Assembly: GCA_947629235.1 (NCBI GenBank)
Contig: CANRCX010000014.1
Coordinates: 1 to 39,169 of the forward strand
DNA: 39,169 bases
Origin: an uncultured Bacilli bacterium
GTDB taxonomy: Bacteria; Bacillota_I; Bacilli_A; RF39; UBA660
Direction of reading: 5' to 3'
Below, piece by piece: positions 1,246 to 35,015 of this stretch (position 1 is its first letter; every line of letters starts with the position of its first letter). The notes beneath the pieces are model-generated. The model saw nothing but the letters and a program-made list of their open reading frames with translations, ran no database searches and was not told the origin of the DNA. The translations under genes and the position numbers were made by a program.

Positions 1246-1260
1246 TAAAATATATATAAA

Positions 1261-1289: not shown

Positions 1290-1303
1290 AATTAAAAAAA
1301 ATG

Positions 1304-1332: not shown

Positions 1333-1351
1333 TTATATAGTAGGTGATAAT

Positions 1352-11050: not shown

Positions 11051-11076
11051 AAAGATAATTTAAAATTATCTTTTTT
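11051..11076 (+). terminator. Terminator in cassette copy 2
   Basis: AAAGATAAT (11051-11059), loop TTAAA, ATTATCTTT (11065-11073), T tract to 11076. It begins right after the stop codon. Confidence 0.75.
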
Positions 11077-11077
11077 C

Positions 11078-11106
11078 TTGTTATAATATAATTAATATGA
11101 TATATT
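11078..11106 (+). promoter_or_regulatory. DUF2207 promoter, cassette copy 2
   Basis: TTGTTA (11078-11083), 17-nt spacer, TATATT (11101-11106), identical to copies 1 and 3 through the ribosome binding site. Confidence 0.7.
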
Positions 11107-11133
11107 TTTAATGTAATAATAGAGGTGAAAATT

Positions 11134-12792: not shown

Positions 12793-12818
12793 AAAGATAA
12801 TTTTAAATTATCTTTTTT
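12793..12818 (+). terminator. Terminator in cassette copy 3
   Basis: AAAGATAAT (12793-12801), loop TTTAA, ATTATCTTT (12807-12815), T tract to 12818. Confidence 0.75.
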
Positions 12819-12819
12819 C

Positions 12820-12848
12820 TTGTTATAATATAATTAATATGATATATT
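12820..12848 (+). promoter_or_regulatory. DUF2207 promoter, cassette copy 3
   Basis: TTGTTA (12820-12825), 17-nt spacer, TATATT (12843-12848), TGA extended -10, same as the other two copies. Confidence 0.7.
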
Positions 12849-12875
12849 TTTAATGTAATAATAGAGGTGAAAGTT

Positions 12876-14570
12876 ATGAAATTAAAATACTTTTTAGTAT
12901 TAATTACATCATTTTTATTTATGAATGTAGTACATGCTAATGAGATAAGAAGTATAAATATGGATATTTATGTTGATAATAATGGAGATGCTCATATTAA
13001 AGAAACATGGATAGCTACTTTAAATAATGGAACAGAAGGGTATAAGCTATATTATAATTTAGGTACATCTGATATTTTAGATTATAGAGTAAAAATGGAT
13101 AATATAGAATTTACAACTATTTCTAACTGGAATAAAGATGCATCATTTATCGATAAAAGTTATAGAGCAGGAATACATAAAATAGAAGATGGATATGAGT
13201 TATGTTTTGGAATATCTAAGTATGGATTAAATACATATGAACTTAATTATACAATAACAAATTTTGTAGTAGGACTAAATGATTCTGATATGATATATTG
13301 GACACTAGTGCCACATAATTTATCAGATAAACCAGAAAGCGTACATATAAAAATATATAGTGATTTTAAATATGAAGATACATTAGATGTATGGGGATAT
13401 GGAAATGATGGTGGTCTTGCATATGTACATGATGGATATATAGAAATGAATAGTGAAGGTGAATTAGATACTTATGAATATATGACAATACTTGTGAAAT
13501 ATCCAAAAGATACATTTAATACATCAACTAAAATAAATAAAAAATTTAATTATTATTATAAAAAAGCAAAAAAAGGTTCTATAAATAGTAAAAAAATTAT
13601 AGATAAAATTACTAATATTATGTATATTATACTTAATATTATAAAATATATTATTATTTTATTAGCATTAGCTCTTCCATTTATTTGTGGATTAATTTTA
13701 CTTAAAAGAAAGCGTGTTTATGGAACTAAAAATTTACAATTTAATAAAGGTATTACTAAAATTAAAAAAGCTCCATATTTTAGAGATATACCATGTAATA
13801 AAAATATATTTGAAGCATATTGGGTTGCTTGTCAATTTGAATTAGTTGATAATATAAATGATTTCTTAGGATCTGTTCTTCTAAAATGGATAAAAGATAA
13901 AAATATAGAAAAAGATTCTTCAAATAAAGAAGCAATAAGATTTAAAAATAAAAAGAATTTAACAGATGTTGAAATAGAACTATATGATTTGATGAAAGAA
14001 GCAAGTGTTGATGGAGTACTTGAAGCAAAAGAATTTATAAGATATAGTAAAAAACATTATTCTAAATTACTTAAATGGTTTGATAAAGAAATAGATGAAC
14101 AAACTATGAAATATGTAGAAAAAGGATTAATAATTAAGTCTAAAGATACATATTTAGTAAAAGATGAAATGAAGGAATATGCTCTTCAAATGGCAGGACT
14201 TAAAAAATTCTTAAATGATTTTTCAAATATTAAAGATAGAGAGTCTATAGAAGTAATGTTATGGCAAGAATATTTAATGTATGCTCAAATATTTGGAATA
14301 GCTGATAAAGTAGCAAAAGAATTTAAAGACTTATATCCAGATGTTATTACAGAAGAAGTATATAGTGACTTTGAATTTATTAATAATTTATCATATGATA
14401 GTATACATGCCGCTGTAAATGCAAGAACTTCATATCAAAAATCATATCATCAAAGTTCAAGTAAAAAAAGAGATTTTGACTATTCTTCAGGTGGCGGGGG
14501 TTATTCTTCTAAAGGTGGTGGAAGTGGATCTTTTGGTGGTGGATCATCAGGTGGCGGAGGCTTCCGTTAA
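12876..14570 (+). CDS. DUF2207 membrane protein, copy 3
   Basis: A 564-residue DUF2207 paralogue. The signal peptide ends VVHA; the extracellular domain is followed by a linker that is basic and Lys-rich (KKAKKGSINSKK) instead of acidic as in copies 1 and 2. The transmembrane helix is at about residues 248-275, followed by the conserved cytoplasmic domain and a Gly/Ser tail ending GGSSGGGGFR. Start ATG 12876 follows GAGGTGA. Part of the extracellular domain is nearly identical in DNA to copy 1 (13155-13465 against 9590-9900), which suggests gene conversion past the copy in between. Function unknown; last gene of the lemA-DUF2207 array. Confidence 0.88.
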   Translation: MKLKYFLVLITSFLFMNVVHANEIRSINMDIYVDNNGDAHIKETWIATLNNGTEGYKLYYNLGTSDILDYRVKMDNIEFTTISNWNKDASFIDKSYRAGIHKIEDGYELCFGISKYGLNTYELNYTITNFVVGLNDSDMIYWTLVPHNLSDKPESVHIKIYSDFKYEDTLDVWGYGNDGGLAYVHDGYIEMNSEGELDTYEYMTILVKYPKDTFNTSTKINKKFNYYYKKAKKGSINSKKIIDKITNIMYIILNIIKYIIILLALALPFICGLILLKRKRVYGTKNLQFNKGITKIKKAPYFRDIPCNKNIFEAYWVACQFELVDNINDFLGSVLLKWIKDKNIEKDSSNKEAIRFKNKKNLTDVEIELYDLMKEASVDGVLEAKEFIRYSKKHYSKLLKWFDKEIDEQTMKYVEKGLIIKSKDTYLVKDEMKEYALQMAGLKKFLNDFSNIKDRESIEVMLWQEYLMYAQIFGIADKVAKEFKDLYPDVITEEVYSDFEFINNLSYDSIHAAVNARTSYQKSYHQSSSKKRDFDYSSGGGGYSSKGGGSGSFGGGSSGGGGFR

Positions 14571-21234: not shown

Positions 21235-22326
21235 ATGAAGAATATGACTAAAACAAATAAACTTATAATTATATCTACTTTATTATTATCATTAATTGGA
21301 ATAATTATGATATATTCTAGTAGTTATATTTGGGCTGAATTTAAATATAATAATCCTTATAAGTATGTATTACAGCAAGGAGTATTCTTTATTATTGGTA
21401 TATTTTTAATGTTTGTATTTTATAAGATTGATTATAATATTTATAAAAAACACGCTAATAAATTTTTGTTAATTTGTTTTATATTGCTTATTTTAGTATT
21501 AATACCAGGAATTGGTAGTGTTAGGAATGGTAGTAGAAGTTGGTTTGGAATACTTGGATTTGGATTTCAACCTAGTGAACTTACTAAAATAGCATTAATT
21601 ATTTTTACATCTAAATATTTATCAAATAATGATAAGTTAAAAAGATATACTTTTAAATTTATGATGCCAATATTTATAATAATATTTATATTTTTTGCTC
21701 TTATAATGTTAGAACCTGATTTTGGTACAGATATGGTTATTATGTGTTCTTTAATTGGTCTTATTTTTATATCAGGAAGTGATGTGTCAATATTTATAAA
21801 ATTAGGTATTCTTGGAGTAATAGGAATAATTATTTTAATTTTAATCGCACCTTATAGATTAGATAGAATTACATCTTTTATAAATCCATGGAGTGATCCA
21901 CTTGGAAGTGGTTTTCAAATGATACAAAGTTTATATGCTATAGGGCCAGGTGGATTTTTAGGATTTGGTTTTTTAAATTCAAGGCAAAAACATTTTTATC
22001 TTCCAGAACCACAAACAGATTTTATATTTTCAATTATTACAGAAGAATTTGGATTTATTGGTGCTTTAATATTAATTATTTTATTTATAACATTATTTTA
22101 TAATATAATTAAAAATTCATTAAAACAAACTGATTTATTTGCTAAATATTTATCATTTGGTCTATCTTTCTTACTTATGTTTCAAACATTATTAAATTTA
22201 TCAGTAGTAGTAGGGTTAGTTCCAATTACAGGTGTAACACTTCCATTTATTTCTTATGGTGGTAGTAGTTTATTAGTTTCCATGATTAGTATTGGAATTA
22301 TTTTAAATACTTCTAAAGATATATAA
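21235..22326 (+). CDS. ftsW: FtsW-type SEDS peptidoglycan polymerase
   Basis: A 363-residue polytopic membrane protein (about ten helices) of the SEDS family, which polymerises lipid II into glycan strands with a partner class B penicillin-binding protein at the division septum. FtsW/SpoVE features are clear: IMIYSSSYIWA, the RNGSRSWFGILGFGFQPSELTK loop, LEPDFGTD, DRITSFINPWSDPLGSGFQ, SLYAIGPGGFLGFG, and the C-terminal TLPFISYGGSSLLVSM. RodA is the main alternative. No good ribosome binding site is visible before ATG 21235, and ATG 21244 is a possible alternative start. The last 93 bp (22234-22326) recur as a decayed fragment at 32561-32653, so the 3' end of this gene looks like an island insertion site. 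Confidence 0.92.
   Translation: MKNMTKTNKLIIISTLLLSLIGIIMIYSSSYIWAEFKYNNPYKYVLQQGVFFIIGIFLMFVFYKIDYNIYKKHANKFLLICFILLILVLIPGIGSVRNGSRSWFGILGFGFQPSELTKIALIIFTSKYLSNNDKLKRYTFKFMMPIFIIIFIFFALIMLEPDFGTDMVIMCSLIGLIFISGSDVSIFIKLGILGVIGIIILILIAPYRLDRITSFINPWSDPLGSGFQMIQSLYAIGPGGFLGFGFLNSRQKHFYLPEPQTDFIFSIITEEFGFIGALILIILFITLFYNIIKNSLKQTDLFAKYLSFGLSFLLMFQTLLNLSVVVGLVPITGVTLPFISYGGSSLLVSMISIGIILNTSKDI
22234..22326 (+). repeat. Left direct repeat (att-like) in the ftsW 3' end
   Basis: 93 bp covering the last 30 codons and stop of ftsW. It aligns without gaps to 32561-32653 with five mismatches (88 of 93 identical). Homology starts abruptly at GTAACAC: the bases before it differ (GGT here, TAA in the right copy). 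Confidence 0.9.
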
Positions 22327-22344
22327 AATTTTTATTCAAGTAAA

Positions 22345-22374
22345 AAAGACTTTTAATTAGTCTTTGTTTTTTTT
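22345..22374. terminator. Bidirectional terminator between ftsW and the LysR gene
   Basis: AAAGACT (22345-22351), loop TTTAATT, AGTCTTT (22359-22365), then G and a run of T. On the minus strand the stem is followed by TTT as well. It isolates ftsW from the convergent LysR gene. Confidence 0.75.
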
Positions 22375-23253
22375 CATAATAATATTCATTAATTGCGAAG
22401 TGGCATAAGTTGGAAAAATCGTTTTATTTGTAATTAACACTAAATTGACTGGTTCAAATTTTTCAACTAGTTTTATTTCATATAAATCTTTAGAATTTAA
22501 GTTATCTTCAATAAATTCTTTTATTACAACACCTAAACCAAATCCTTCTTTAACAAATTCATAAACTAACGAGTGGCTAGCAAGATTTATATGAGCACTA
22601 TAATTCATATCTGAGCCATCATTATTTTGAAGAGATGTTTGTATAGGATTAATAGAATTTAAAATTATACTTTCGTTTTTAATTTCATTAAAATTTACTT
22701 TTTTAGTAGCATATTTTTTATATTTTTTGTTACCAATTAAACAATAATGTAATTTTTTTAATTGATAAATTTTTAAACCATTTAACTTTGGATCATTCTC
22801 ATTAGCATATATTACTGCTACATCAATATTTCCATTTTTAACCATATTTATTAAATTAGGAGTATAACTTTCTTCAATAAAAATATTAACTTTAGGGAAT
22901 TCTGTAGAATATGTTTTTAAGTAAGGCATTAAAAAATATTTTAATATTGTATTACTTGTTCCAATTTTAATTTCACCAGTATCTATTTTACTTATATTGT
23001 TAAAAAACTTTTCTACATCTGCAAGTTGTGATAATGCTGGTGTGATATAATTATAAAGCTTTTTTCCATTTTCTGTTAATTTTACTCCTTTTTTATTTCT
23101 GATAAATAAACTTCCATTTAATTGCCATTCAAGATTTTTAATTGACTTAGTAACAGCGGGTTGTGAAATATTTAATTTTTTTGATGCTTCTGTAATTGTA
23201 GAACAATTAGCTACAACAATAAAAACTTTAAATAAATCATAATTTATATTCAT
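22357..23253 (-). CDS. LysR-family transcriptional regulator
   Basis: A 298-residue LTTR of normal length. The N-terminal winged HTH (about residues 1-60) has TITEASKKLNISQPAVTKSI with the linker FIRNKKGVKLTENGKKLY. The substrate-binding domain (about 88-295) shows GEIKIGTSNTILKYFLMPYL and FVKEGFGLGVVIKEF. LysR proteins sense a small molecule and usually control a divergent promoter. This gene diverges from the peptide/radical SAM operon, and a perfect dyad with T-N11-A spacing lies between them at 23371-23385, so it is the likely cluster switch. The AAAGGAG ribosome binding site is well placed. The effector is unknown; it might be the product or a pathway metabolite such as D-alanine (inference). 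Confidence 0.93.
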   Translation of the reverse strand: MNINYDLFKVFIVVANCSTITEASKKLNISQPAVTKSIKNLEWQLNGSLFIRNKKGVKLTENGKKLYNYITPALSQLADVEKFFNNISKIDTGEIKIGTSNTILKYFLMPYLKTYSTEFPKVNIFIEESYTPNLINMVKNGNIDVAVIYANENDPKLNGLKIYQLKKLHYCLIGNKKYKKYATKKVNFNEIKNESIILNSINPIQTSLQNNDGSDMNYSAHINLASHSLVYEFVKEGFGLGVVIKEFIEDNLNSKDLYEIKLVEKFEPVNLVLITNKTIFPTYATSQLMNIIMKKNKD

Positions 23254-23370: not shown

Positions 23371-23385
23371 ATAACTTTAAGTTAT
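23371..23385. promoter_or_regulatory. Predicted LysR operator (T-N11-A dyad)
   Basis: ATAACTTTAAGTTAT: perfect 7-bp arms around one base, with T at 23372 and A at 23384 giving the classic LysR T-N11-A spacing. A TATAAT (23383-23388) overlaps its right arm. It is 74 bases upstream of the peptide start codon and 118 bases from the LysR start. Confidence 0.6.
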
Positions 23386-23419: not shown

Positions 23420-23440
23420 TTGTAATAAGTTATAATACAA
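23420..23440 (+). promoter_or_regulatory. Second dyad and -10 box of the peptide operon
   Basis: TTGTAATAAGTTATAATACAA is an imperfect dyad (8 of 10 arm positions match) and contains TATAAT at 23431-23436. No consensus -35 lies upstream, as expected for a promoter that needs an activator. Transcription from here would start around the ribosome binding site, so the 5' UTR would be very short; the TATAAT at 23383 is an alternative. Confidence 0.45.
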
Positions 23441-23458
23441 CTGAGAGGAGGGTGTACA

Positions 23459-23539
23459 ATGAAATCAGTAAATAAAAAAGTTGTTGTTAAAGCAGAAAAT
23501 GTAAAAACAAGTAATGCATCTTGTCATTACCATATCTAA
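23459..23539 (+). CDS. Candidate RiPP precursor peptide (26 residues)
   Basis: This short gene encodes 26 residues: MKSVNKKVVVKAENVK, then TSNASCHYHI at the C-terminus. The ribosome binding site GAGGAGGGTG is among the strongest in the window, with good spacing, which argues that it is translated at high level. It lies 70 nt upstream of a radical SAM/SPASM protein of the peptide-maturase type and downstream of LysR-type operator sequences. A Lys/Val-rich N-terminal half would be the leader, and the C-terminal SNASCHYHI, with one Cys, one Tyr and two His, the likely modified core. I know no family with this sequence. It is too short to be recovered by usual gene finders. Leader/core border and modification are inference. 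Confidence 0.75.
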   Translation: MKSVNKKVVVKAENVKTSNASCHYHI

Positions 23540-23561
23540 TTAAAATTAGATGAATCTCATA

Positions 23562-23585
23562 ATATAGGGGAATCTTCCCCTATAT
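23562..23585 (+). promoter_or_regulatory. Strong hairpin between peptide and maturase genes
   Basis: TATAGGGG (23563-23570) pairs with CCCCTATA (23577-23584) around AATCTT, extendable by A-T pairs on both ends. It is unusually GC-rich for this DNA. ACTAAAGG, not a T tract, follows, so it is more likely an attenuating, processing or mRNA-stabilising element that keeps peptide mRNA above enzyme mRNA. Confidence 0.7.
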
Positions 23586-23609
23586 ACTAAAGGAAATAAG
23601 AGGTGTTTT

Positions 23610-24965
23610 ATGTATTTAATTAAAGAAATTGAATTTATAGATTATAATGATAATGAAACTATCATGATTAATCTTATTAATGGTGCTACTGATATAATTG
23701 AGAAAGATATTTATACTAAAATAATTTCTAATAATTTTGATAAACTAGATAAAGAAATAATAAATAGTTTATTAGAAAGAAAATATTTGTTTGAAAATAA
23801 GGAAGATTATGAGCTTTTTATAACAAGTGTTGATAATAAAATAGAAGAATTAGAAAAGAAAGCAACACCTAATTTTTTAGTAGTTCCAAGTTATGCATGT
23901 AATTTACATTGTATTTATTGTTATGAACAAACTTACATGATTAAAGGCACAACAAACATTGATCCTTTGAAGATGGTAGATCTTCAATTTGAAAGAATAG
24001 ATAAAATAATGCAAGTATATGAGAGTAAATATGGTAAAACTACTGATGATATTAGAATTACTATAATGGGTGGAGAACCATTACTTAAATGTAATAAAAA
24101 AACAATTTCATATATTTTTGAACAAAGTAAAAAAAGAAATTATACAATAGATATTGTTTCAAATGGTGTAGATTTGAACCATTATATTGATTTATTTAAT
24201 AAATATAAAGATATCCTTGATCATATACAAATTACTGTTGATGGAGTAAAAGAAATTCATGATAAAAGAAGAATATTCCATGATGGTAGAGGTAGTTTTG
24301 ATTTAATTATGAATAATATTCATTTAGCAATTGAAAATAATATAACAATAGTATTGAGAGTAAATGTAGATGAAACCAATATAAATGAATTATCAGATTT
24401 AGCAAATGTATTAGTAAAAGAATTTAATCATAGTGAGAAACTTTTACCTTATTTGTATTTATTACAAGATGGAGGATGTTCTGGTGAATCAAATATTATT
24501 AATGAAAAAGTTGGAATAGAAAGAATATTTGAATTAGAAGATAAAAACCCAAATATGGCTATATTTAGAAAAAAGTTCCATCCTGCTGATTTTATTGATA
24601 GTATCTTTAAAGATGAGCCTTATCAACCAGTATTAAGACACTGTGGAGCATCAAAAAATCAATTTATTTTGGATTGTAAATCAAATGTATATAAATGTTG
24701 GCATGGTATTGGAAATAATGATTATCGTGTAGGAATATTTTATCCTAAATATGAATTAAATGAAGAAAAAATAAACGCTTGGTTTAATAGAAGTGTCAGA
24801 GTTTTAGAAAAATGCAAAAATTGTAAATATAGATACATTTGTGGTACAGGATGTCCTGCAGCTAAACATATGAGTGAAAATAACATGAATATAAAAGAAC
24901 CGAGTTGTGTTGAATATAACGAATTAATTAAAACTATCATTTTAGAAAAAATGAAAAGGCTTTAG
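23610..24965 (+). CDS. Radical SAM/SPASM peptide maturase
   Basis: A 451-residue enzyme, typical length for RiPP-modifying SPASM proteins. The N-terminal ~85 residues could be a precursor-recognition region. The radical SAM cluster motif is CNLHCIYC (C97, C101, C104), followed by MGGEP (153-157) for SAM binding and ITVDGVKEIHDKRR. The SPASM domain has C345 and C363 for the first auxiliary iron-sulfur cluster, and C402-x2-C405-x5-C411-x3-C415 with a distal C433 for the second. Such enzymes install thioether, C-C or C-O crosslinks, or epimerise residues in a peptide. The 26-residue peptide gene upstream is the natural substrate. The ribosome binding site AGAGGTG supports ATG 23610. The exact chemistry is not predictable; a sulfatase-maturase-like role is unlikely because no sulfatase is nearby. 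Confidence 0.9.
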   Translation: MYLIKEIEFIDYNDNETIMINLINGATDIIEKDIYTKIISNNFDKLDKEIINSLLERKYLFENKEDYELFITSVDNKIEELEKKATPNFLVVPSYACNLHCIYCYEQTYMIKGTTNIDPLKMVDLQFERIDKIMQVYESKYGKTTDDIRITIMGGEPLLKCNKKTISYIFEQSKKRNYTIDIVSNGVDLNHYIDLFNKYKDILDHIQITVDGVKEIHDKRRIFHDGRGSFDLIMNNIHLAIENNITIVLRVNVDETNINELSDLANVLVKEFNHSEKLLPYLYLLQDGGCSGESNIINEKVGIERIFELEDKNPNMAIFRKKFHPADFIDSIFKDEPYQPVLRHCGASKNQFILDCKSNVYKCWHGIGNNDYRVGIFYPKYELNEEKINAWFNRSVRVLEKCKNCKYRYICGTGCPAAKHMSENNMNIKEPSCVEYNELIKTIILEKMKRL

Positions 24966-25020
24966 GCTTTAAGATTTTATTAAATGCATTATTTATAGTA
25001 TAATAGTTGAGGTGATTAAC

Positions 25021-27039
25021 ATGGATAGACAAGATAAAAATGTTTTGACTTTGGGAATATTTGCACATGCTAATGCTGGAAAAACTACAATAACTGAACA
25101 TTTGTTATATCATACAAATGTAATAGATCATATTGGTAGAGTTGATACTGGTAATACTGTAACTGATAATATGAAAGTTGAACAAGAAAGAGGAATTACT
25201 GTTAGAGATTCCATTGTTTCATTTGAATTAGATGGTAAAACAGTTCAACTAATTGATACCCCAGGACATGTAGATTTTTCTGCTGAAGTTGAAAGAGCTA
25301 TAAATGTTTTAGATGGTGCAATTTTAGTTATTTCTGGTGTTGAAGGATTAGAAGCACAAACTTATACAATTTGGAGAGCATTACAAGAAAAAAATGTTCC
25401 AGTTATTATTTTTATTAATAAAATGGATAGACAAGGTGCAGATTTTGATAGAGTTGTTGCAGAACTTCAAACTAACTTAAATGTTCCTACTATGACTTTA
25501 AAACATGTTATTAGAAATAATAATGGTGAATTAAAAATTGAAAATTCAAAAATTGAAGATATTATTGAAGAATTATCGATGGTTGATGATGAAGTTTTAG
25601 AAAAATATCTTAATAGTGAAAATATTGATGGTAATTGGTTAGCTGAAAAAATATGTGTTTTAACCCATAATTGTAAATTATTCCCTATTATTGGTGGAAG
25701 TGCTTTAATTGATGTCGGAGTAACAGATTTAGTAGATGCAATTTCTAAATATATCCCTACTACTATTAAAAATATAAATAGTGAATTATCGGCTTATGTT
25801 TTTATGATAAGAGTTGATGAAAATGGAAAAAATGCTTATGTTAAAGTTTTAAATGGAAAACTTGAAAATCGAGATGCTATTCAGACCTCAGAGGGAACAA
25901 CAGAAAAAGTTAAAAATTTAACTATTTCTAATGGCTCAAAAATGGTATCTGTTGATAAAGTTTATAGTGGTGATATTGCAATAGTTAATGGACTTGATGT
26001 AAAATGTGGACAAATTATTGGTAATCAAAAAGGATTTGATAAATATATAAGCTTTGTTAAGCCATTATTAACAATGGAAGTAAATCCAGAAAAAAAAGAA
26101 GATACAATTGAACTTATGAGAGCTCTAAGAGTTTTAAATGAAGAAGATCCTTATTTGAATGTAAGATACAATGAGAGAACGAATTCTATTTTTTGTAGTT
26201 TAATGGGTGAAGTTCAAGCACAAATAGTTAAATCTCTTCTAGATGAAAGGTTTGGATTAAAGGTTAATATAGAAAATCCAGTAGTTATTCATAAAGAAGT
26301 GCCAACTATTCCATCTAGGGCAAAGGCAAGTTATACAACTGTTTCTGGTATTGAATTAGAAGTAACACCATTAAAAAGAGGTAGTGGTTTTAGATATGTA
26401 TCAAAAGTTTCAACTGATTTTTTACATTTAAAATATCAAAGACAAGTTGAAAGATTGATAAATTATTACTCTAAACAAGGATTAAAAGGTTGGGAACTAA
26501 CTGATATGGAAGTTGCTTTAATTGATGGACAATTTGATTCTATGGGTAGTGATCCCATGCATTTTAATATTATTACCCCTCTTGCACTATTTAGATGCTT
26601 AAAACAATCTAGAATGAAATTATTAGAGCCAATATTAAGGTATATAATAACATTACCAGAAAAAGATTTAAGTGGTGTTATAAAATTACTATATAGTAAA
26701 AGTGCTATGTATGAAATAACAAATCGTTTTGATGAAATAATAACTATTGAGGGTGAAGCACCTGCATCTAATATGATGAATTTTCCATTAGAATTATCTA
26801 TGATGACAAGTGGAAGAGGAACATATACTTCTTATGTTTCTAGATATGATATTAGTAAAAATCAAGATGCAGAATTGGAATATATAGGTGTTGATCCAAG
26901 AAATGAAACTACTTTTATTATTAATGACATGAAAGCAAGTCTTGAGCCATTGGATAAAACATTAATGAAAAAGAAAAAAGAAAGTAGATCAAAATTTGCG
27001 AGACAACAAAAAGAAAAGGAATATGGCATTAAAAGATAA
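25021..27039 (+). CDS. Tet(M)/EF-G-like ribosomal protection GTPase
   Basis: A 672-residue translational GTPase closest in layout to Tet(M)-type ribosomal protection proteins, which bind the 70S A-site region and expel a bound drug. G motifs: AHANAGKTT (15-23), RGIT, DTPGH, NKMD and a GGSAL G5 region. Then come a beta-barrel domain and EF-G-like domains III-V (VRYNERTNSIFCSLMGEVQ; GRGTYTSYVSRYD). A basic tail of about 25 residues extends past the usual end. The P-loop Asp common to EF-G and Tet(M) (HxDAGKT) is Asn18 here. The start is ATG 25021 after GAGGTGAT. A TATAAT at 24999-25004 could give extra transcription. In this cluster it is a good candidate for self-immunity; real tetracycline resistance is possible but not shown. 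Confidence 0.85.
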   Translation: MDRQDKNVLTLGIFAHANAGKTTITEHLLYHTNVIDHIGRVDTGNTVTDNMKVEQERGITVRDSIVSFELDGKTVQLIDTPGHVDFSAEVERAINVLDGAILVISGVEGLEAQTYTIWRALQEKNVPVIIFINKMDRQGADFDRVVAELQTNLNVPTMTLKHVIRNNNGELKIENSKIEDIIEELSMVDDEVLEKYLNSENIDGNWLAEKICVLTHNCKLFPIIGGSALIDVGVTDLVDAISKYIPTTIKNINSELSAYVFMIRVDENGKNAYVKVLNGKLENRDAIQTSEGTTEKVKNLTISNGSKMVSVDKVYSGDIAIVNGLDVKCGQIIGNQKGFDKYISFVKPLLTMEVNPEKKEDTIELMRALRVLNEEDPYLNVRYNERTNSIFCSLMGEVQAQIVKSLLDERFGLKVNIENPVVIHKEVPTIPSRAKASYTTVSGIELEVTPLKRGSGFRYVSKVSTDFLHLKYQRQVERLINYYSKQGLKGWELTDMEVALIDGQFDSMGSDPMHFNIITPLALFRCLKQSRMKLLEPILRYIITLPEKDLSGVIKLLYSKSAMYEITNRFDEIITIEGEAPASNMMNFPLELSMMTSGRGTYTSYVSRYDISKNQDAELEYIGVDPRNETTFIINDMKASLEPLDKTLMKKKKESRSKFARQQKEKEYGIKR

Positions 27040-27050
27040 GGAGAAAGCTT

Positions 27051-28067
27051 ATGCAGTCGTATAATAATGATTTTCCATTAGATTATTATGATGAATTAGA
27101 AAAAAAAGAAATAGAAATATATAATGAAATGTATTTTGATGAAGAAAAGATAAAAACAATTTCTAATATTGATTTAAAGAAAATCTTATCAAGAAAAGCA
27201 ATTATTTTTGAAGATTTTGATTATAATTTACCACAAAATATATTTGTTATAAATTCTTATAAAGGTAAGAAAATAGTTGGAAGAAAAATAAGATCAACAT
27301 TAAGAATTGAAAATAAAATAAATGCTATAAATTGTAGCATGATTACAGCACCTATGCTTTTAGGCTTTTTGAAAACTAGAAGTAAAAAAGGAAGGAAAAT
27401 ATTTGTTGAGTATTTTCCTTTCAATAATGAAGAAAAAAAGTATATTTTCAATGATTTAAAGCAAAACAGATTATATGATATTTATTATCCATATAAATAT
27501 AGAGATTTTTATACAAATCAAGAAGAAAAATCACCAGAAACTGGTTGGACATTTAATCCAGAGAAAAAAGAATATTTAGGATATGGTGAAGTTCATTTTA
27601 GAAATTTTACGACAAAATTTTTTGCAGATAAAAATATGGATGGCAAAAATATTTATGATCCTGCTTGTTCTACTGGGGAATTTTTATCAGATTTTAAAAA
27701 AAATCATCCTACTTCTCATACAATTGGTCATGACTTGAGTCAAGAAATGATTGATTATGCTAAAGATTTTGTAGATGAATCATGTTGTTGTAATGCTATA
27801 AATTCTCCTTTAAAAAATAAAACAATTGATGTTATGTTTTTAAGATTTTTAAATTCAGAAGTGGTAACTACTAAAGATGCTTATAGAATCTTTAAAGTAT
27901 TAATTCAAAAAGTAAAGAAACAAGGATTAATTGTTTGTTTTGGACATACTCCAGTATTAATAACAAAACAATGGTTTATAAAAAATAATTTAAAACCTAT
28001 TATTTGTAATGGCTATGATGCTAAAAGAAATGCAATATTCCAATATTATGTATTTGAGGTAATTTAA
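27051..28067 (+). CDS. Class I SAM-dependent methyltransferase with N-terminal extension
   Basis: A 338-residue protein. The C-terminal half is a Rossmann methyltransferase: motif I DPACSTGEFL (203-212), motif II GHDLSQEMIDYA (226-237) and a later NKTIDVMFLRFLNS stretch. The N-terminal ~190 residues are unfamiliar and contain YFPF, DIYYPYKYRDFY and ETGWTFNPEKKEY; they may bind the substrate. The CCC at residues 245-247 is unusual. It starts 11 bases after the GTPase gene behind an AAGGAGAAAG ribosome binding site, and its stop overlaps the next start, so it belongs to the operon. Candidate tailoring enzyme for the peptide, or rRNA/protein methylation as immunity; the substrate is unknown. Confidence 0.75.
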   Translation: MQSYNNDFPLDYYDELEKKEIEIYNEMYFDEEKIKTISNIDLKKILSRKAIIFEDFDYNLPQNIFVINSYKGKKIVGRKIRSTLRIENKINAINCSMITAPMLLGFLKTRSKKGRKIFVEYFPFNNEEKKYIFNDLKQNRLYDIYYPYKYRDFYTNQEEKSPETGWTFNPEKKEYLGYGEVHFRNFTTKFFADKNMDGKNIYDPACSTGEFLSDFKKNHPTSHTIGHDLSQEMIDYAKDFVDESCCCNAINSPLKNKTIDVMFLRFLNSEVVTTKDAYRIFKVLIQKVKKQGLIVCFGHTPVLITKQWFIKNNLKPIICNGYDAKRNAIFQYYVFEVI

Positions 28068-29143
28068 TGAGAAATACAAAGTTAATAATAGATTTAAAAA
28101 ATATTCAACAAAATATTGATTCATTAAAAAAATATTTAGGAAATGATGTTGAAATTATGCCAGTAGTGAAAGCAAATGGCTATGGTACACATTTGAATTA
28201 TTGTCCTGAAATATTGAATCAATTTGATTATGTAGCAGTTGCTTTATTAGATGAAGCAATTTTGTTAAGGAAAAATGGATATTGTAATAATATATTTATA
28301 TTATATCCATTATCAAAAGAAGAATTGAAAATTGCAGTTAAGGAAAATTTTATTGTAAATGGAAGTAATATATTTGAGATATTTGATAATATAAAAGATG
28401 AAATTAAAATTCATCTTGAAATAGAAACTGGAATGGGAAGAACAGGCTTACAAGAAAATAAAGTTAATGAGTATATTAATAAATTAAAAAGTAATCCTAA
28501 TATTATTATGGATGGTATATTTACTCATTTATCATCTAGTGGTTCGGATCAATTATTTTCAATGAAACAAATTCAAAAATTTGAACAAATTGTAGAAACA
28601 TTTTCAGAAAATAATATCAAACCAAAGTATAAACATGTTTGTTGTAGTGGTGGATTAAAAAACTATAAAAATTATATTTATAATATGGTTAGAATTGGTT
28701 TATTAATTTATGGTTATTATCCCAATGATTCACTAAAAGGTGAAATTGATTTAAAACCATCTATGACCTTAAAATCTAATATAAGTTTTTTGAAAGAAAT
28801 AGATATTAATGATACAGTTGGGTATAATAAAAATTTTATTGCTAAAAGAAAAACAAAAGTTGCAACTATTCCATTTGGTTTTGCAGATGGATTGATTGGG
28901 TTAGAAACTGGAATGCCTTACGTAATTATTAAAAATCAAATTGCTAAAATAATTGGTATTTGTATGGATAATATGATGCTAGATGTTACTGATATTGATA
29001 ATATAAATGTAGGAGATGAAGTGTATATATGGGACAATAAAAACCTAACTATTGAAGAAGTTGCACAATGGTGTAATGGAATTTGTAATTATGAAGTTAT
29101 GGCATCTATTTCTGAAAGAGTACCAAGAGTATTAAAAAAATGA
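28067..29143 (+). CDS. Alanine racemase family protein
   Basis: A 358-residue fold-type III PLP enzyme of normal Alr length, interconverting L- and D-alanine or another amino acid. The PLP lysine is K35 in VVKANGYG, the phosphate-side arginine R209 in VRIGLLIYG, and the catalytic tyrosine Y253 in VGYNKNF; CMDNMMLDVT matches the second-subunit active-site strand. The usual NAYGHG is NGYGTH, so the conserved His is shifted by one, which hints at altered specificity. Its ATG overlaps the preceding stop by one base (TAATG), showing translational coupling. Its place inside an accessory cluster suggests a pathway-specific D-amino acid supply or a resistance role rather than only wall synthesis; it could still be the cell's Alr. 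Confidence 0.85.
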   Translation: MRNTKLIIDLKNIQQNIDSLKKYLGNDVEIMPVVKANGYGTHLNYCPEILNQFDYVAVALLDEAILLRKNGYCNNIFILYPLSKEELKIAVKENFIVNGSNIFEIFDNIKDEIKIHLEIETGMGRTGLQENKVNEYINKLKSNPNIIMDGIFTHLSSSGSDQLFSMKQIQKFEQIVETFSENNIKPKYKHVCCSGGLKNYKNYIYNMVRIGLLIYGYYPNDSLKGEIDLKPSMTLKSNISFLKEIDINDTVGYNKNFIAKRKTKVATIPFGFADGLIGLETGMPYVIIKNQIAKIIGICMDNMMLDVTDIDNINVGDEVYIWDNKNLTIEEVAQWCNGICNYEVMASISERVPRVLKK

Positions 29144-29169
29144 TAATTTAATGATTGTTTGGGGGAAGT

Positions 29170-30147
29170 ATGAAAAATATTGAAATTATTGCCTTATCTA
29201 GAAGTTTAAAAATGATATGTACAGAAAATATAAATCTTGCCGAGAAGAAATTAAAAGAATTAGGTTATAATGTATCTTTTTCTAAAAATTCTAATGTATG
29301 TGATTCATTTATTTCTTCAAGTATTAAAAGTAGAATTACTGATTTGCATAATGCAATAAATAATAAAAATATTGACATTATATTATCAGTATTGGGTGGT
29401 TATAATTGTAATCAACTTTTAGATTATATAGATTATGATTTGTTGAAAAGTAAACCAAAAAAAATATGTGGGTATTCTGATATTACAGTGTTATTAAATG
29501 CTATTTATAAGATGACAGGTATTGTAACTTTTTTGGGGCCAACTTTTCATAGTTTTTCAATGAAAAAAGGATTAGATCCAACAATTGAATCATTTACTAA
29601 AGTAATTAATGGTAATGAGTTCATTTTATCTGATCCAGATTTTTATAGTAGTGATAGATGGTATGATGATCAAGATAATCGAAAATTCATTAAAAATAAA
29701 GGTATGGTAGTAATTAATGGAGGAAAAACTGAAGGTGTTATAATTGGTGGTAATTTATGTAGTTTCAATTTATTACAAGGAACTAAATATATGCCAGACT
29801 TAACCGATAAAATATTATTTTTGGAAGATGATGCACTGGTTGGTAAGGAATTCCCTTACGAATTTGATAGAAATTTAACGTCATTGATACAACAACCAAA
29901 TTTTAATAAGGTAAGGGGTATTGTCATTGGTAGATGCCAGACACAAACTGGTATGACTATAACAAAGTGGAAAAAAATTTTAAATAAAAAAGAATTAAAA
30001 AAAATACCAATTATAATAAATGCCAATTTTGGGCATACCACACCTAATGCTACTATTCCTATCGGAAGAATATGCAAAATTGATACTACATCATTAAATA
30101 AAAAAATAATTTTATGTGGAGAAAATAATGAGGGAAATTATGAATAA
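29170..30147 (+). CDS. S66 family serine peptidase, MccF-like
   Basis: A 325-residue S66 (LD-carboxypeptidase/MccF) hydrolase. The nucleophile is Ser103 in CGYSDIT, with Glu219 in LFLEDDA and His289 in NANFGHTTP completing the Ser-Glu-His triad. Several stretches follow MccF rather than wall-recycling LdcA: LGGYNCNQLLDYIDYDL, IIGGNLCSFNLLQGT, SLIQQPNFNKVRGIVIGR. MccF gives self-immunity to microcin C by cleaving the toxic peptide-nucleotide link. I take ATG 29170 after GGGGGAAG instead of the TTG at 29155. In this cluster it may detoxify the product or trim it; a role in cutting L,D bonds of muropeptides is the alternative. Confidence 0.85.
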   Translation: MKNIEIIALSRSLKMICTENINLAEKKLKELGYNVSFSKNSNVCDSFISSSIKSRITDLHNAINNKNIDIILSVLGGYNCNQLLDYIDYDLLKSKPKKICGYSDITVLLNAIYKMTGIVTFLGPTFHSFSMKKGLDPTIESFTKVINGNEFILSDPDFYSSDRWYDDQDNRKFIKNKGMVVINGGKTEGVIIGGNLCSFNLLQGTKYMPDLTDKILFLEDDALVGKEFPYEFDRNLTSLIQQPNFNKVRGIVIGRCQTQTGMTITKWKKILNKKELKKIPIIINANFGHTTPNATIPIGRICKIDTTSLNKKIILCGENNEGNYE

Positions 30148-31267
30148 AATTTTTAATATGAATGTTGATGGAATATTAGATTATTCTTTAGAAATAAAAA
30201 AAGGTGAAAAGGTATTTGTTTTTGCAGATTTGAATGCTTTAGATTATTGTAATTTAATAGCATCAAAAATAATACAAAGAGGGGCGACCCCATTTATATT
30301 ATGGAATGATTTTACACTTAATCGAGCATTAATAAATTCTAAAAATGATAAAATATATAAAGAAATGTTTAATATGTATGAGAAAATGATAGATAGTTGT
30401 GATGCAGCCATAATGTTAGATAATAATATTGAAGAATATGAAAATATTTCTACAGATGATATATTATTTTTCAAAAATGAATATTATTTAAAAATATTTC
30501 AAAAAATAATGTTATTTGATAGATGGACATATCTTCGTTATCCACAGCAAGAATTAGCAGATTTATTTGGAATTTCTTATGATGAACATTTAAAATTATT
30601 GGAGCAAGTATCTAATTTTGATTATTCAAAAATTGAAAAAAATGCTCAAATATTGAAATCAGTATTAGATCAAACAGATAAAATAAGAGTTATAAATGGA
30701 GATGGAACTGATGTATCTTTTACAAAAAAAGGTATAGATTCAGCAGTATGTTGTGGTAAATGGAATTTACCTGATGGTGAGGTATATACAGCACCAGAAA
30801 AATACTCTATGAATGGTGAAATATATTTTAGTTTTGATACCTTTTTTAGAGGGAAAACTTATAAAGATATCTGGGTAAAAGTTAAAGATGGAAAAATTAT
30901 TGATTCAAAATGTAGTTTAGATGAAGAATTTAAAAAAATTTTAGATTCTGATTCTGGGTCTAGATATTTTGGTGAGTTTGCATTTGGATTAAATCCTTAT
31001 ATTGAAAAAAATTATAATGACAATTTATTTAATGAAAAAATGATTAAAACAGTACACTTTGCAATTGGTGAACCTCATTATAATACTGACAATGGAAATA
31101 AAAGCATTATGCATTGGGATTTAATTGTAAATATGCAAAATGGTGGTTTAATATATTTTGATGATGTGTTAGTTCAAAAAAATGGAATTTTTATAGATGA
31201 AAGATTATCTGAGTTAAATTATGAAAAACAAAATGAAACAAGCAAAAAGTTAGTTAAGAAGATTTAA
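30140..31267 (+). CDS. M29 family metallo-aminopeptidase
   Basis: A 375-residue protein resembling the M29 (AmpS/PepS/aminopeptidase T) family, which removes N-terminal residues using two metal ions. Expected ligands are in place: E214 in LPDGEVYTAP, E279 in YFGEFAFGLNP, H306 in VHFAIGEPHY, and H325 and D327 in MHWDLIV. The start is best at ATG 30140 behind GAGGGA (30130-30135), overlapping the preceding gene by 8 bases. It is slightly shorter than the usual ~410 residues. In the cluster it could trim the leader from the modified peptide, as host aminopeptidases do for microcin C, or degrade the product. Which peptide it cuts is not known. Confidence 0.82.
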   Translation: MNKIFNMNVDGILDYSLEIKKGEKVFVFADLNALDYCNLIASKIIQRGATPFILWNDFTLNRALINSKNDKIYKEMFNMYEKMIDSCDAAIMLDNNIEEYENISTDDILFFKNEYYLKIFQKIMLFDRWTYLRYPQQELADLFGISYDEHLKLLEQVSNFDYSKIEKNAQILKSVLDQTDKIRVINGDGTDVSFTKKGIDSAVCCGKWNLPDGEVYTAPEKYSMNGEIYFSFDTFFRGKTYKDIWVKVKDGKIIDSKCSLDEEFKKILDSDSGSRYFGEFAFGLNPYIEKNYNDNLFNEKMIKTVHFAIGEPHYNTDNGNKSIMHWDLIVNMQNGGLIYFDDVLVQKNGIFIDERLSELNYEKQNETSKKLVKKI

Positions 31268-31290
31268 TAAATTTTAAGGGAGTTTTAGTA

Positions 31291-32049
31291 ATGAAAAAAA
31301 TAGTTGATAAGCCTGATTTATATGATTTATTATATATGGATGTTACAGAAGATATTGGTATGTATAAAAGAATATTAAAAGATGTAAAAAATATTCTTGA
31401 ATTTGGAGCAGGATCTGGAAGGGTTACTATTCCATTGGCTATGGATAATCATTTTATCGATGCAGTTGATATATCTTCTGAAATGCTACAATCTTTAAAG
31501 AATAAAATTAAAAATGATAAATTTTTAAGTAGCCATATTAATCCAATTTTAGCAAATATGTGTACATATACTTCAAATAAAAAATATGATGCAATAATAA
31601 TACCTTTAACTTCCTTTAATTATCTTTTAACGGATCATGAACAAAAACAATGTCTTGGCTCAGTTAAAAATAACTTGTTAGATAATGGTTTTGCCATCAT
31701 TGAATTATTATCTCAAAATACATTTTTAGATACCAATCAATCAGAAGATTTAGCATTTATAAAAAGGTTAAAAGTTGATGATAGTTCTTATTATGATTAT
31801 TATCGAAAAACAATATTAGATTTAGATAATAGAAAAATATATCAGAGAAGATTATTTAAATATTATGTTAATGATAATTATATTTCTGAAGAAGAATTAG
31901 AATGGAAAAATCGTTTTGTAACAATTGATGATTTTGAGCAGTTAGTAAATAAAGTGGGATTAAAAATAGAACAAATTTATGGTAATTGTAATTTAGAAAT
32001 ATATGATTCAACTAGTGAAGATGTATTTGTAAAAGTCAGGAGAAAATAA
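31291..32049 (+). CDS. Class I SAM-dependent methyltransferase
   Basis: A 252-residue small-molecule-type methyltransferase. Motif I is LEFGAGSGRVTIPLA (about 36-50), motif II AVDISSEMLQSL (58-69), and motif IV/post I KKYDAIIIPLTSFNYLL. The second half (YYRKTILDLDNRKIYQRRLF and DDFEQLVNKVGLKIEQIYG) is of the type common in this family of stand-alone methyltransferases. It starts 23 bases after the aminopeptidase gene with AAGGGAG, and the next gene follows its stop by one base. Probable tailoring enzyme of the cluster; target (peptide, rRNA or small molecule) unknown. Confidence 0.85.
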   Translation: MKKIVDKPDLYDLLYMDVTEDIGMYKRILKDVKNILEFGAGSGRVTIPLAMDNHFIDAVDISSEMLQSLKNKIKNDKFLSSHINPILANMCTYTSNKKYDAIIIPLTSFNYLLTDHEQKQCLGSVKNNLLDNGFAIIELLSQNTFLDTNQSEDLAFIKRLKVDDSSYYDYYRKTILDLDNRKIYQRRLFKYYVNDNYISEEELEWKNRFVTIDDFEQLVNKVGLKIEQIYGNCNLEIYDSTSEDVFVKVRRK

Positions 32050-32050
32050 T

Positions 32051-32380
32051 ATGTCAATGGAAGTTAAAAAAACATTTTATAATAATGGTAACCTTAAAAC
32101 AGAAGTTCCTTATGTTGACAATAAAAAAAATGGAAGAGCAAAAAGTTATTATGAAAATGGAAATATTAAGATAGAAGTTGATTATTGTGATGGTATTATT
32201 GATGGTTACATCAGAACTTATTATAAAGATGGAAATTTAGAGTCTGTTGAAACTTATAAACATGGTGAAAGAAACAATGATTTAGTATTATATAGTACGA
32301 GTGGTAATATAACTTACTGTGGGTATGATTATGAATATGATTATGGTGGTGGATGTCATAACTTAATTAAGCATTTATAA
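32051..32380 (+). CDS. MORN-type repeat protein (YwqK-like)
   Basis: A 109-residue soluble protein made mostly of MORN_2 repeats: TFYNNGNLKTEVPYVDNKKN, SYYENGNIKIEVDYCDGIID and TYYKDGNLESVETYKHGERN. Such repeats are annotated as toxin-antitoxin YwqK-family antitoxins, but the usual role is unproven. The C-terminal part (CGYDYEYDYGGGCH) is Tyr/Gly/Cys-rich and not a repeat. It starts one base after the upstream stop with AGGAG inside that gene, so it is translationally coupled to the methyltransferase. It is the last clear gene of the island; a binding or scaffold role is possible. Confidence 0.8.
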   Translation: MSMEVKKTFYNNGNLKTEVPYVDNKKNGRAKSYYENGNIKIEVDYCDGIIDGYIRTYYKDGNLESVETYKHGERNNDLVLYSTSGNITYCGYDYEYDYGGGCHNLIKHL

Positions 32381-32421: not shown

Positions 32422-32505
32422 ATGGAAACTAGAATTATATTAACAGGAGTTTTAAAAGACAAAGGTAAATATGCTGATAGTAATTTAAATTATTTTTGTC
32501 CTTAG
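32422..32505 (+). CDS. Small 27-codon reading frame, possible gene remnant
   Basis: ATG at 32422 with AGAAGG nine bases upstream encodes 27 residues, beginning METRIILTGVLKDKGKY and ending NYFCP. The opening resembles the first strand of NUDIX hydrolases, so it may be the stub of a deleted gene. Alternatively it is a small peptide ending in Cys-Pro. A TATAAT at 32394-32399 lies upstream and a terminator follows 13 bases after the stop. Together with the terminator and the ftsW fragment it fills most of the 346-base gap 32381-32726. Confidence 0.3.
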   Translation: METRIILTGVLKDKGKYADSNLNYFCP

Positions 32506-32560: not shown

Positions 32561-32653
32561 GTAACACTTCCATTTATTTATTATGATAGTAGTAGTTTAT
32601 TAGTTTCAATGATTAGTATTGGAATTATTTTAAATACTTCTAAAGATATATAG
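32561..32653 (+). pseudogene. Decayed ftsW 3' fragment, right direct repeat
   Basis: Translates as VTLPFIYYDSSSLLVSMISI and on to NTSKDI-stop, against VTLPFISYGGSSLLVSM in the intact FtsW. Three of the changes hit the conserved SYGGS patch, as expected once the fragment was freed from selection. An in-frame TAA (32558-32560) sits directly before it, so it is not translated as part of a gene. It marks the right end of the island. Confidence 0.9.
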
Positions 32654-32658
32654 ATTTA

Positions 32659-32687
32659 TTGACTTCTTTTATAAATTGTTGTATTAT
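32659..32687 (+). promoter_or_regulatory. Promoter of the sigma factor gene
   Basis: TTGACT (32659-32664), 17-nt spacer, TATTAT (32682-32687). It begins six bases after the ftsW fragment. An 8-bp inverted repeat (TATTATAA 32682-32689 and TTATAATA 32705-32712) overlaps the -10 and could be an operator. Confidence 0.75.
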
Positions 32688-32735
32688 AACACGTGCTTTA
32701 AAAATTATAATATTTATAAAAGGTAGGTGAATTCT

Positions 32736-35015
32736 GTGACAAAAAATATTAACAATTTAAATAATAATGAAATATATAATATGTTACTACCTACTATTTC
32801 TAATTATATTTTAAAATATGACTATATTAAAATTGATAATGATTTAATTATGCAAGTTATAGAATCATCAAAAAATGAATATAAAGATACAAAGTATGAT
32901 TTTGATAAATATTTTAAAAACAAATTAGAAAAAACAATCAAAGATGAAATAAGAAAACAATTAAATGATGAAAAAGAATCATTCAATATAATTAATAATT
33001 ATATAAATAAGAAATTAGTATTACCATTAACTTATGAAAATTCTATGAATAGTTTAAAAGACATAAATAAATTTTTATCACAATATTCTTTTGAACCTGA
33101 TATAGAACTCTTAATTGATTTAATAAATAAAAACATTAATTTTAAGAATATGATAAAATTAATTGTTGACTTTAATTATCAAAAAATTATGAATATTGAA
33201 CTTGATAAAATTTTTAATAATGATTTTATATCACAATTAGTTTTAACATATTGTATGATTAATGACATTGAAATTTATTCTACTAAAAATACTGAAAAAA
33301 TTATTAGTGATGATGTTGATATTGATAAACTTGATCTTGAAGGACAATATTTAAAAGAAATAGGTGCTTATCCACTTTTAAGTAAAGAAGATGAAGTAAT
33401 TTTATTTACTAAATTAAAAAATGGAGATACAGGTATATTTAATTATATAGTTAATTGTAATTTAAGATTAGTAGTAAGTGCTGCTAATAGATTTAGTCAT
33501 AGGGGATTAGAATTCTTAGATTTAATACAAGAAGGAAATATTGGTCTTATGACTGCAGTAGAACGATTTGATTATACTAAAGGATATAAATTTTCATCAT
33601 ATGCTATATATTGGATAGAATGTGCAATACGAAGAGCATTAGCATTTAAGAGTAGAGCTATTAGAGTTCCTGTTTATAATCATGTAGCTCTTCTAAAAAT
33701 TAATAAAATAAGAGAAATTCTTATTAATAAATTAGAAAGAGAACCAACAGCAGAAGAAATTGCTAAAGAAACTAATTTGTCTATTGAAAGAGTAAAATAT
33801 CTATTAAAAATACAACCTCCAGTTAGTTTAAATTCAATTGTTGGGGGTGATAAAGATGATTCAGAGCTTGGTGATTTTATATCTGTTGATGATGATACAT
33901 TGGAAAGTCTTTGTATTAATAATATTTTAAAAGAAGAAGTTCAAAAATTAATTGAAGATTGTGATTTAAAAGATCAAGAAAGAGAAGTAATAATATCACG
34001 ATTTGGTTTATTTAATAATGAAAAATTAACTCTTGAAGAGATTGGAAGGAAATACAATGTTACAAGAGAAAGAATTAGACAAATTGAAAAGAAAGTTATA
34101 TATAAATTTATTAAAAATCAAAATACAGATAAACTAGCAGATTATATGGATAATCCTGAAAAAGCAAGAGAAAATTTAAAACAAAAAAGAGAAGAATATT
34201 ATAATGGTATTAAAAAAAAGAGTGAAAAAAAACGTAAAATTATAGATGAAAATAGTAATTATATAGATAATTCTAAAGAAACAGAAGATACTTTAGAGAA
34301 AAAAGAAGAATATTATAGTGATAATGAGAATGAAAAAAATCAACAAAATAAAAGGAGTAATTATATGTCAAAAAGAAAGAATAAAACAAAATATGAATTT
34401 TTTAAAGGTTATTCAAAAGAAGAAGTAGATAAAGTAATTGATACTTTACTTCCTGAAGAAAAATATGTTATTGAATTATGGGAAAAAACTCCATTAGATA
34501 GAGTTTGTTATGTTTTCTTTATTGATACAACTAGAAAAATTGCTCGTCGTCTAGAAAATCCTAATTCAAAAAATCTTGTTAGAAAAAATCCTGGAGAAGG
34601 AATCCTTAAAGTTAGAGAAATAATGAAAGCAGAAGGAAAATATATTCCAAATGAAATTGTTAAGGAAGAAAAAGTATCTAATGAAAATGCCTTAAATGAA
34701 ACAAATAATAATGATAAACATTTATCAAAAGAAGATTATTTATCTATTTTAAAAGCTTTAAGAAGTTCTTCGTTTGCAGAAATGTTAGAAATAATGCCTA
34801 TTAAAGATGCAATTATTGTAGCTTTAAGATTTGGTTATGTTGATGGTAAATGTTTTGAAACTAAAAAAATTGCAGAATTTTTAGAAATTAGTGAAGAAGA
34901 AGTACGTAATACTTCTAAGAAAATATTACTTTTATATAAAGAAAAAATTAATGATATGATTGATAAAATTATAATGTATAATGATAATAATCAAAAATAT
35001 ACTAAAGAAATATAA
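32736..35015 (+). CDS. Sigma-70 family RNA polymerase sigma factor with long C-terminal extension
   Basis: A 759-residue protein; GTG 32736 is chosen because AGGTGA (32725-32730) is its ribosome binding site and the next ATG is much further in. Residues 1-200 are an unfamiliar helical region. The sigma core follows at about 200-465: region 1.2/2 with LVVSAANRFSHRGLEFLDLI, QEGNIGLMTAVERFDYTKGY and FSSYAIYWIECAIRRALA, region 3 with REPTAEEIAKETNLSIERVK, and region 4 with LTLEEIGRKYNVTRERIRQI. Region 2.4 differs from SigA (IYWIECAIRR for TWWIRQAITR). Then come a Lys/Glu-rich linker and about 230 residues with two further sigma-4-like helical modules, the last (about 668-745) shared with the protein at 16103-16954. 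It may be the main sigma factor of the lineage or an alternative one. Confidence 0.88.
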   Translation: MTKNINNLNNNEIYNMLLPTISNYILKYDYIKIDNDLIMQVIESSKNEYKDTKYDFDKYFKNKLEKTIKDEIRKQLNDEKESFNIINNYINKKLVLPLTYENSMNSLKDINKFLSQYSFEPDIELLIDLINKNINFKNMIKLIVDFNYQKIMNIELDKIFNNDFISQLVLTYCMINDIEIYSTKNTEKIISDDVDIDKLDLEGQYLKEIGAYPLLSKEDEVILFTKLKNGDTGIFNYIVNCNLRLVVSAANRFSHRGLEFLDLIQEGNIGLMTAVERFDYTKGYKFSSYAIYWIECAIRRALAFKSRAIRVPVYNHVALLKINKIREILINKLEREPTAEEIAKETNLSIERVKYLLKIQPPVSLNSIVGGDKDDSELGDFISVDDDTLESLCINNILKEEVQKLIEDCDLKDQEREVIISRFGLFNNEKLTLEEIGRKYNVTRERIRQIEKKVIYKFIKNQNTDKLADYMDNPEKARENLKQKREEYYNGIKKKSEKKRKIIDENSNYIDNSKETEDTLEKKEEYYSDNENEKNQQNKRSNYMSKRKNKTKYEFFKGYSKEEVDKVIDTLLPEEKYVIELWEKTPLDRVCYVFFIDTTRKIARRLENPNSKNLVRKNPGEGILKVREIMKAEGKYIPNEIVKEEKVSNENALNETNNNDKHLSKEDYLSILKALRSSSFAEMLEIMPIKDAIIVALRFGYVDGKCFETKKIAEFLEISEEEVRNTSKKILLLYKEKINDMIDKIIMYNDNNQKYTKEI

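Follow-up and report, generated by a model that had tools for sequence, protein, structure and literature searches.

A conserved peptide and radical SAM/SPASM maturase locus in uncultured gut Bacilli: a plausible new type of RiPP cluster with predicted isonocardicin synthase-like tailoring

The question raised by this locus is what is made by a set of genes in which a 26-codon open reading frame precedes a radical SAM/SPASM enzyme, and how that set is controlled and passed between genomes. The window (the whole stretch of DNA analysed, 39,169 nucleotides) belongs to a genome of 1.43 Mb in 64 contigs from a gut Bacilli lineage. All open reading frames named in an earlier note on this DNA are present and open, and the tight same-strand spacing described there was recovered. 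The most plausible starts are 25021 (GTPase), 29170 (S66 hydrolase) and 30140 (M29 peptidase), each behind a Shine-Dalgarno-like sequence; ATG 30140, which is more likely than the alternative GTG 30116, reproduces the reported 8-bp overlap between the S66 and M29 genes. The best explanation, which we consider reasonably probable, is a LysR-controlled RiPP unit that was acquired as a block and combines a maturase with NAT-type and alanine racemase-type (Alr) tailoring enzymes. Its features are:

22234..22333, +, left direct repeat, 3' end of a rodA/ftsW-like gene (93% over 100 bp with 32561-32660)
22357..23253, -, LysR-type regulator (Pfam HTH_1 and LysR_substrate), divergent to the peptide gene
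23371..23385, no strand, LysR-type box ATAACT-TTA-AGTTAT, conserved among eight upstream regions
23431..23436, +, -10 element TATAAT
23443..23451, +, Shine-Dalgarno sequence GAGAGGAGG
23459..23539, +, 26-aa putative precursor peptide: conserved leader, variable linker, invariant core
23562..23585, +, stem-loop between peptide and maturase
23610..24965, +, radical SAM/SPASM peptide maturase (NCBIfam, Pfam Radical_SAM, cysteine alignment)
25021..27039, +, EF-G/Tet(M)-like translational GTPase (tet_protect score, TetM in the PDB, orthologues)
27051..28067, +, homologue of isonocardicin synthase (NAT)-type 3-amino-3-carboxypropyl transferases (sequence and fold match to PDB 8zhu)
28067..29143, +, Alr-fold PLP enzyme, overlapping the preceding gene by 1 bp
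29170..30147, +, S66 serine hydrolase (MccF/LD-carboxypeptidase type)
30140..31267, +, M29-type metallo-aminopeptidase (accessory; Pfam PF02073, 125 bits)
31291..32049, +, class I methyltransferase MT2 (accessory)
32051..32380, +, MORN_2 repeat protein (accessory; PF07661)
32561..32660, +, right direct repeat after the MORN gene, remnant copy of the rodA/ftsW-like gene end

With the maturase as query, we found eight distinct loci (the window included) in which the upstream side of the maturase gene was sequenced; the relatives of the window's genome recovered in this way include 'Candidatus Pelethosoma' and other Bacilli MAGs. The earlier note had staked its reading on the peptide always preceding the maturase and on its frame being conserved beside related maturases, and both hold: the same 26-codon frame ends 61-84 bp 5' of the maturase start in 8/8 loci, and the copies at the other loci are 77-96% identical to that of the window. 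The window peptide, MKSVNKKVVVKAENVKTSNASCHYHI, contains a single Cys. Across the eight loci, residues 1-3 and 5-10 are constant, residues 11-17 vary except for V15, residues 18-25 (SNASCHYH) are invariant and residue 26 is I or V, a pattern that fits the previously suggested modification around SNASCHYHI. The pN/pS of the peptide (0.23) is like that of the maturase (0.21), so its amino acid sequence appears to be under selection. A degenerate pattern of the core motif was present in 4/291 family genomes, every one with the maturase; the locus of the fifth maturase-bearing family genome is cut at the contig start. Because the peptide is conserved in eight loci with this pN/pS and the core motif is confined to maturase genomes, the combination of peptide, SPASM maturase and tight operon is confirmed as real and beyond chance. 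The locus thus holds a conserved short gene beside a modification enzyme, as RiPP clusters do, and its conservation and co-occurrence strongly support the peptide as a putative RiPP precursor in a cluster of this type.

The maturase carries the radical SAM motif CxxxCxxC (C97, C101, C104) and seven SPASM cysteines (C345, C363, C402, C405, C411, C415 and C433), the complement expected of a radical SAM/SPASM enzyme; as the earlier note had read, the cysteines are all in place, and they are invariant in eight orthologues. The SPASM domain scores 49.1 bits with TIGR04085 (cut-off 27), and the best NCBIfam model is CefB (NF038107) with 144.2 bits, below its cut-off of 600. Domain layout is common to this enzyme and to CefB and related RiPP maturases (NF038107, TIGR04463, Clo7bot), all of them peptide maturase families; it differs from the CefB type in that score and in the single Cys of its precursor. 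The maturase is rare, being found in 5/291 family genomes. Beyond the family, a search of 395 genomes of the class returned only one 29%-identical protein, plasmid relatives reach at most 29% identity, and a search for viral relatives found none. The class-level match (L021/L025) was set aside as a different system, with AMP-ligase-like and carrier-like proteins as neighbours; at L025:2628-6141 these genes are followed by the 29%-identical SPASM maturase, possibly another peptide-maturation locus in the same class.

Two methyltransferases had been described in the cluster. The second (MT2) stands, with daptide_MTase as its nearest family (76 bits with NF041820, under the cut-off of 175), whereas the first is, by sequence and fold, a homologue of the NAT-type aminocarboxypropyl transferase. 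Of all solved proteins, only isonocardicin synthase (8zhu, 8zhv, 9upq) matches it strongly: phmmer gave an E-value of 1.2e-34 over residues 53-335 against 8zhu and a profile search gave 1.4e-39, while generic methyltransferases reached only about 0.04. The predicted model, of moderate confidence (mean pLDDT 63), matched 8zhu with Z 19.6 over 252 residues, the next unrelated chain scoring 11.2 over 144. The homology is near full-length and includes the N-terminal part beyond the generic methyltransferase domain, and the motifs ACSTG.FL, R.LN..VV.T and GHTPVL are common to the protein and the NAT family. NAT transfers the 3-amino-3-carboxypropyl (ACP) group (PMC10491745). Entry 8zhv contains nocardicin G, which the title of the structure gives as the NAT acceptor. 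None of the 392 other genomes sampled from the phylum held a homologue in our search. Among plasmids, tblastn matched a relative in three records, two from Pantoea and one from Acinetobacter.

The Pantoea eucrina record (NZ_CP083450.1, L059:7375-9591) has a 43-aa open reading frame, then a YcaO gene, then a NAT-like gene whose product has NAT as its best PDB match (E 2.3e-15). Because the NAT-like gene there adjoins a YcaO gene and a short frame, NAT-like enzymes occur in another RiPP-like setting, possibly a second RiPP type. The likeness to our cluster lies in a NAT-like gene near a short frame and beside a RiPP-type enzyme; the difference is that the enzyme is YcaO and not radical SAM, that the short frame is unrelated and that no further genes are common to both.

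NAT alkylates nocardicin G at its phenol. Because NAT acts at a phenol and the invariant core holds only one, Tyr24 within CHYH, the homology suggests that the enzyme would form a homoseryl ether on Tyr24; Cys22, His23 and His25 are kept as alternative candidate acceptors in the core.

The adjacent Alr-fold protein scores 275.5 bits with TIGR00492 (cut-off 168) and has the catalytic PLP lysine and tyrosine of alanine racemases; a second Alr homologue, 33% identical, is encoded elsewhere in the same genome (G000:C6). In the cluster copies, the PLP lysine and catalytic tyrosine, the arginines and the CMD motif are all retained. The GHG motif is altered, however, and where standard Alr has the tyrosine of 'YRVPR' these copies have E, Q or D; the Geobacillus-type reference of this pocket comparison serves as a guide only. 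Since catalytic residues are kept and substrate-pocket positions are changed, the substrate has likely changed, and the PDB matches include histidine and lysine racemases. In the nocardicin A pathway NocJ, a PLP enzyme of another fold than Alr, acts after NAT and epimerises the homoseryl arm. Because NocJ performs this analogous step, the simplest reading of the NAT-Alr pair is that Alr may epimerise the appended homoseryl group, although no Alr-fold enzyme is known to us whose substrate is a peptide-attached amino acid. Nocardicin A tailoring likewise pairs a NAT-family ACP transferase with a PLP enzyme capable of amino acid racemisation; it differs in serving an NRPS beta-lactam through NocJ, whereas in our cluster the peptide is ribosomal, a radical SAM maturase is present and the PLP enzyme has the Alr fold.

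The GTPase scores 539.2 bits with the tetracycline-protection model NF012153 (cut-off 775) and 331 bits with the EF-G model (cut-off 659). Its best PDB match is TetM (E 4e-103), TetM and TetO being its closest solved relatives; it differs from these ribosomal protection proteins in lying under the family cut-off and in sitting in a biosynthetic operon. Orthologues are 72-86% identical among loci, with GTP-binding motifs intact, and by analogy the protein could protect the producer's own translation. The S66 hydrolase matches both domains of its family (PF02016, 112 bits; PF17676, 103 bits); its nearest relatives are the MccF-like proteins BA_5613 and Lmo1638 (PDB 5usd and 4e5s, E 5e-95), and the conventional reading would be hydrolytic detoxification. 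Microcin C offers a parallel here, in that it too has a short, ribosomally made peptide, SAM as the donor for ACP (aminopropyl) transfer and an S66 MccF-type hydrolase, but its adenylating enzyme MccB/ThiF is absent from our cluster, where NCBIfam and Pfam gave a ThiF-family match to 0/9 proteins, and its enzyme MccD is not homologous to NAT (PMC10491745).

Comparison of the loci shows which genes belong together. The core order is LysR / peptide - maturase - GTPase - NAT homologue - Alr, usually with S66 next (6/7 loci with that region sequenced), and it is kept with proteins 55-90% identical. After Alr, the window continues S66-M29-MT2-MORN, L016 has S66-MT2-MORN-M29, G261 (L013 plus L038) has S66-MT2-MORN, and L015, L019 and L020 have S66; G272 (L024 plus L039) reads NAT-Alr-M29, without S66 at that place. 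Judged by these gene orders, which cover the loci where the 3' part was sequenced, the fixed set consists of LysR, peptide, maturase, GTPase, NAT and Alr; S66 and M29 (L016 and L039 besides the window), both peptidase-type, are partly exchangeable, and MT2 and MORN (L016 and L038 besides the window) go together. Of the gene set given in the earlier note, maturase, GTPase, 'methyltransferase 1' and Alr are therefore conserved, while M29, MT2 and MORN vary among loci and are not fixed members.

From the observed conservation, co-occurrence, family assignments and operon anatomy we infer the chemical steps, acceptor residue, target and immunity as follows. The ribosome would make the 26-aa precursor, and the maturase, probably after binding the conserved leader (MKSxNKKVVV), would alter the core SNASCHYH(I/V) by radical chemistry. 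Next, the NAT-type enzyme would move the 3-amino-3-carboxypropyl (homoseryl) group of SAM onto a core nucleophile, most likely the Tyr24 phenol. Inversion at the alpha-carbon of this group, which the homoseryl arm of nocardicin A likewise undergoes, may be the work of the PLP racemase. S66 and/or M29 could trim or detoxify the product and, should the product inhibit translation, the Tet(M)-like GTPase may shield the ribosome of the producer. Against this explanation, the invariant core differs from the variable cores of many bacteriocins, and the GTPase, being under the Tet cut-off, could have another role. No exporter was seen within the cluster, as had been reported, which is unusual for an antibiotic. 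The cluster is of the radical SAM RiPP type, with predicted chemistry, and plausibly represents a new class. The fuller proposal, that this class consists of SPASM-modified peptides with a Tyr O-homoseryl group added by a NAT-type enzyme, epimerised by an Alr-fold enzyme and acting as translation inhibitors with a dedicated GTPase protector, is put forward tentatively. In the open-access literature, a coverage outside which most subscription papers lie, we found no description of this gene combination or of NAT in RiPPs, and nothing relevant on Tet(M)-like RiPP immunity. If the proposal is true, nocardicin-type aminocarboxypropyl transfer extends to ribosomal peptides and, in uncultured gut Bacilli, is tied to radical SAM chemistry. 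Should the GTPase serve self-protection, it would take ribosome protection beyond tetracycline biology and be a pointer to the target of the product. With so short and invariant a precursor, the idea lends itself to direct testing.

The same invariant core and missing exporter would also suit a conserved small molecule other than an antibiotic, cut from the end of the peptide in the manner of PQQ or mycofactocin and serving as redox cofactor, metallophore or signal; ACP transfer and racemase would then follow a staphylopine-like logic on His. Metal could be bound by the Cys and the two His that surround Tyr, the histidine and lysine racemases among the Alr matches point the same way, and ACP groups are common in metallophores, but NAT has no homology to NAS and CntL, the ACP transferases of metallophores (PMC10491745). 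The GTPase and S66 genes are hard to account for under such a product, the patchy distribution (5/291 genomes) also speaks against it, and we regard it as possible but rather doubtful.

The tailoring genes could also be read differently within a RiPP cluster, with the NAT homologue as a methyltransferase or an enzyme for another substrate and Alr merely supplying a free D-amino acid for an ATP-grasp ligase elsewhere. The NAT homologue does have generic methyltransferase Pfam matches. In L015, L019 and L020 the protein behind LysR, which has no Pfam match, gave a model (mean pLDDT 61) that fits RimK/LysX/ArgX-type ATP-grasp ligases with a best Z of 12.6, while its profile found no match among PDB sequences; an amidohydrolase lies nearby at these loci (Amidohydro_2 in L015), and G272 also carries the ATP-grasp gene beside LysR. 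We found no homologue of this protein in the window's genome, however, and the NAT match lies far above generic methyltransferases (E 1e-34 against 0.04; Z 19.6 against 11.2), which makes this arrangement unlikely.

The earlier note began the unit at the peptide gene and overlooked the divergent LysR gene, which belongs to it, adjoining the peptide at every locus with that side sequenced (orthologues 68-82% identical). The palindrome ATAACTnnnnGTTAT is present in 8/8 upstream regions, 87-89 bp 5' of the peptide ATG, a position that suits a LysR-type activation site. The -10 element is invariant in the same regions, 28-29 bp 5' of the ATG, and the Shine-Dalgarno sequence, the very strong ribosome binding site noticed earlier, is invariant in all eight loci. 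Control of the RiPP unit by LysR through this box and promoter would be the best explanation of these elements. Between peptide and maturase, a stem of 10-13 bp without a T-run is possible in 8/8 loci, and its arms co-vary (ATATAGGGG.../...CCCCTATAT against TATAAGGGAGA.../...TCTCCCTTATA); stems were judged by folding each locus separately, the MAFFT alignment of the region being poor, and z-scores of -1.3 to -3.9 are modest at some individual loci. The hairpin probably sets the peptide:enzyme ratio, leaving more peptide than enzyme message. Leader peptides of the attenuator kind exist for tet(M), and a short frame with a stem-loop, placed 5' of a gene set with a Tet(M)-like GTPase, could be such a leader of a resistance operon and no substrate at all, but we rejected this highly improbable reading because purifying selection acts on the peptide sequence, the hairpins of the eight loci have no T-run, the next gene encodes a SPASM peptide-maturase-type enzyme and the LysR-type box and promoter already account for control.

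The unit, of about 10 kb, was most likely gained as a block and at different sites in different genomes, because direct repeats flank it and three same-genus genomes without the maturase have other genes after the rodA/ftsW orthologue. In G261 the repeat on either side of the cluster is 452 bp of the dacF 5' end, at 97% (L013:8123-8574, L038:5010-5461). The repeat pair 22234-22333/32561-32660 of the window can be read as the scar of a block insertion. dacF also follows S66 in L015 and L019. At 32422-32505 a 27-codon frame (METRIILTGVLK...) resembles the start of a NUDIX-like gene at L020:6291-6707 (METKIVLTGILK...) and is probably a gene remnant. Elsewhere in the window, two adjacent large secreted-looking proteins have repeated Cys-rich modules (64-3655; CAAGTYKAAHTVNYG...), and three tandem paralogous membrane-type proteins end in long Gly/Ser-rich tails (9311-14570; GGGGFSSGSGGSGSFGGG). 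A 762-aa protein at 32727-35015 has a sigma-70-like middle and long extra ends, and four more sigma-like matches occur in the genome.
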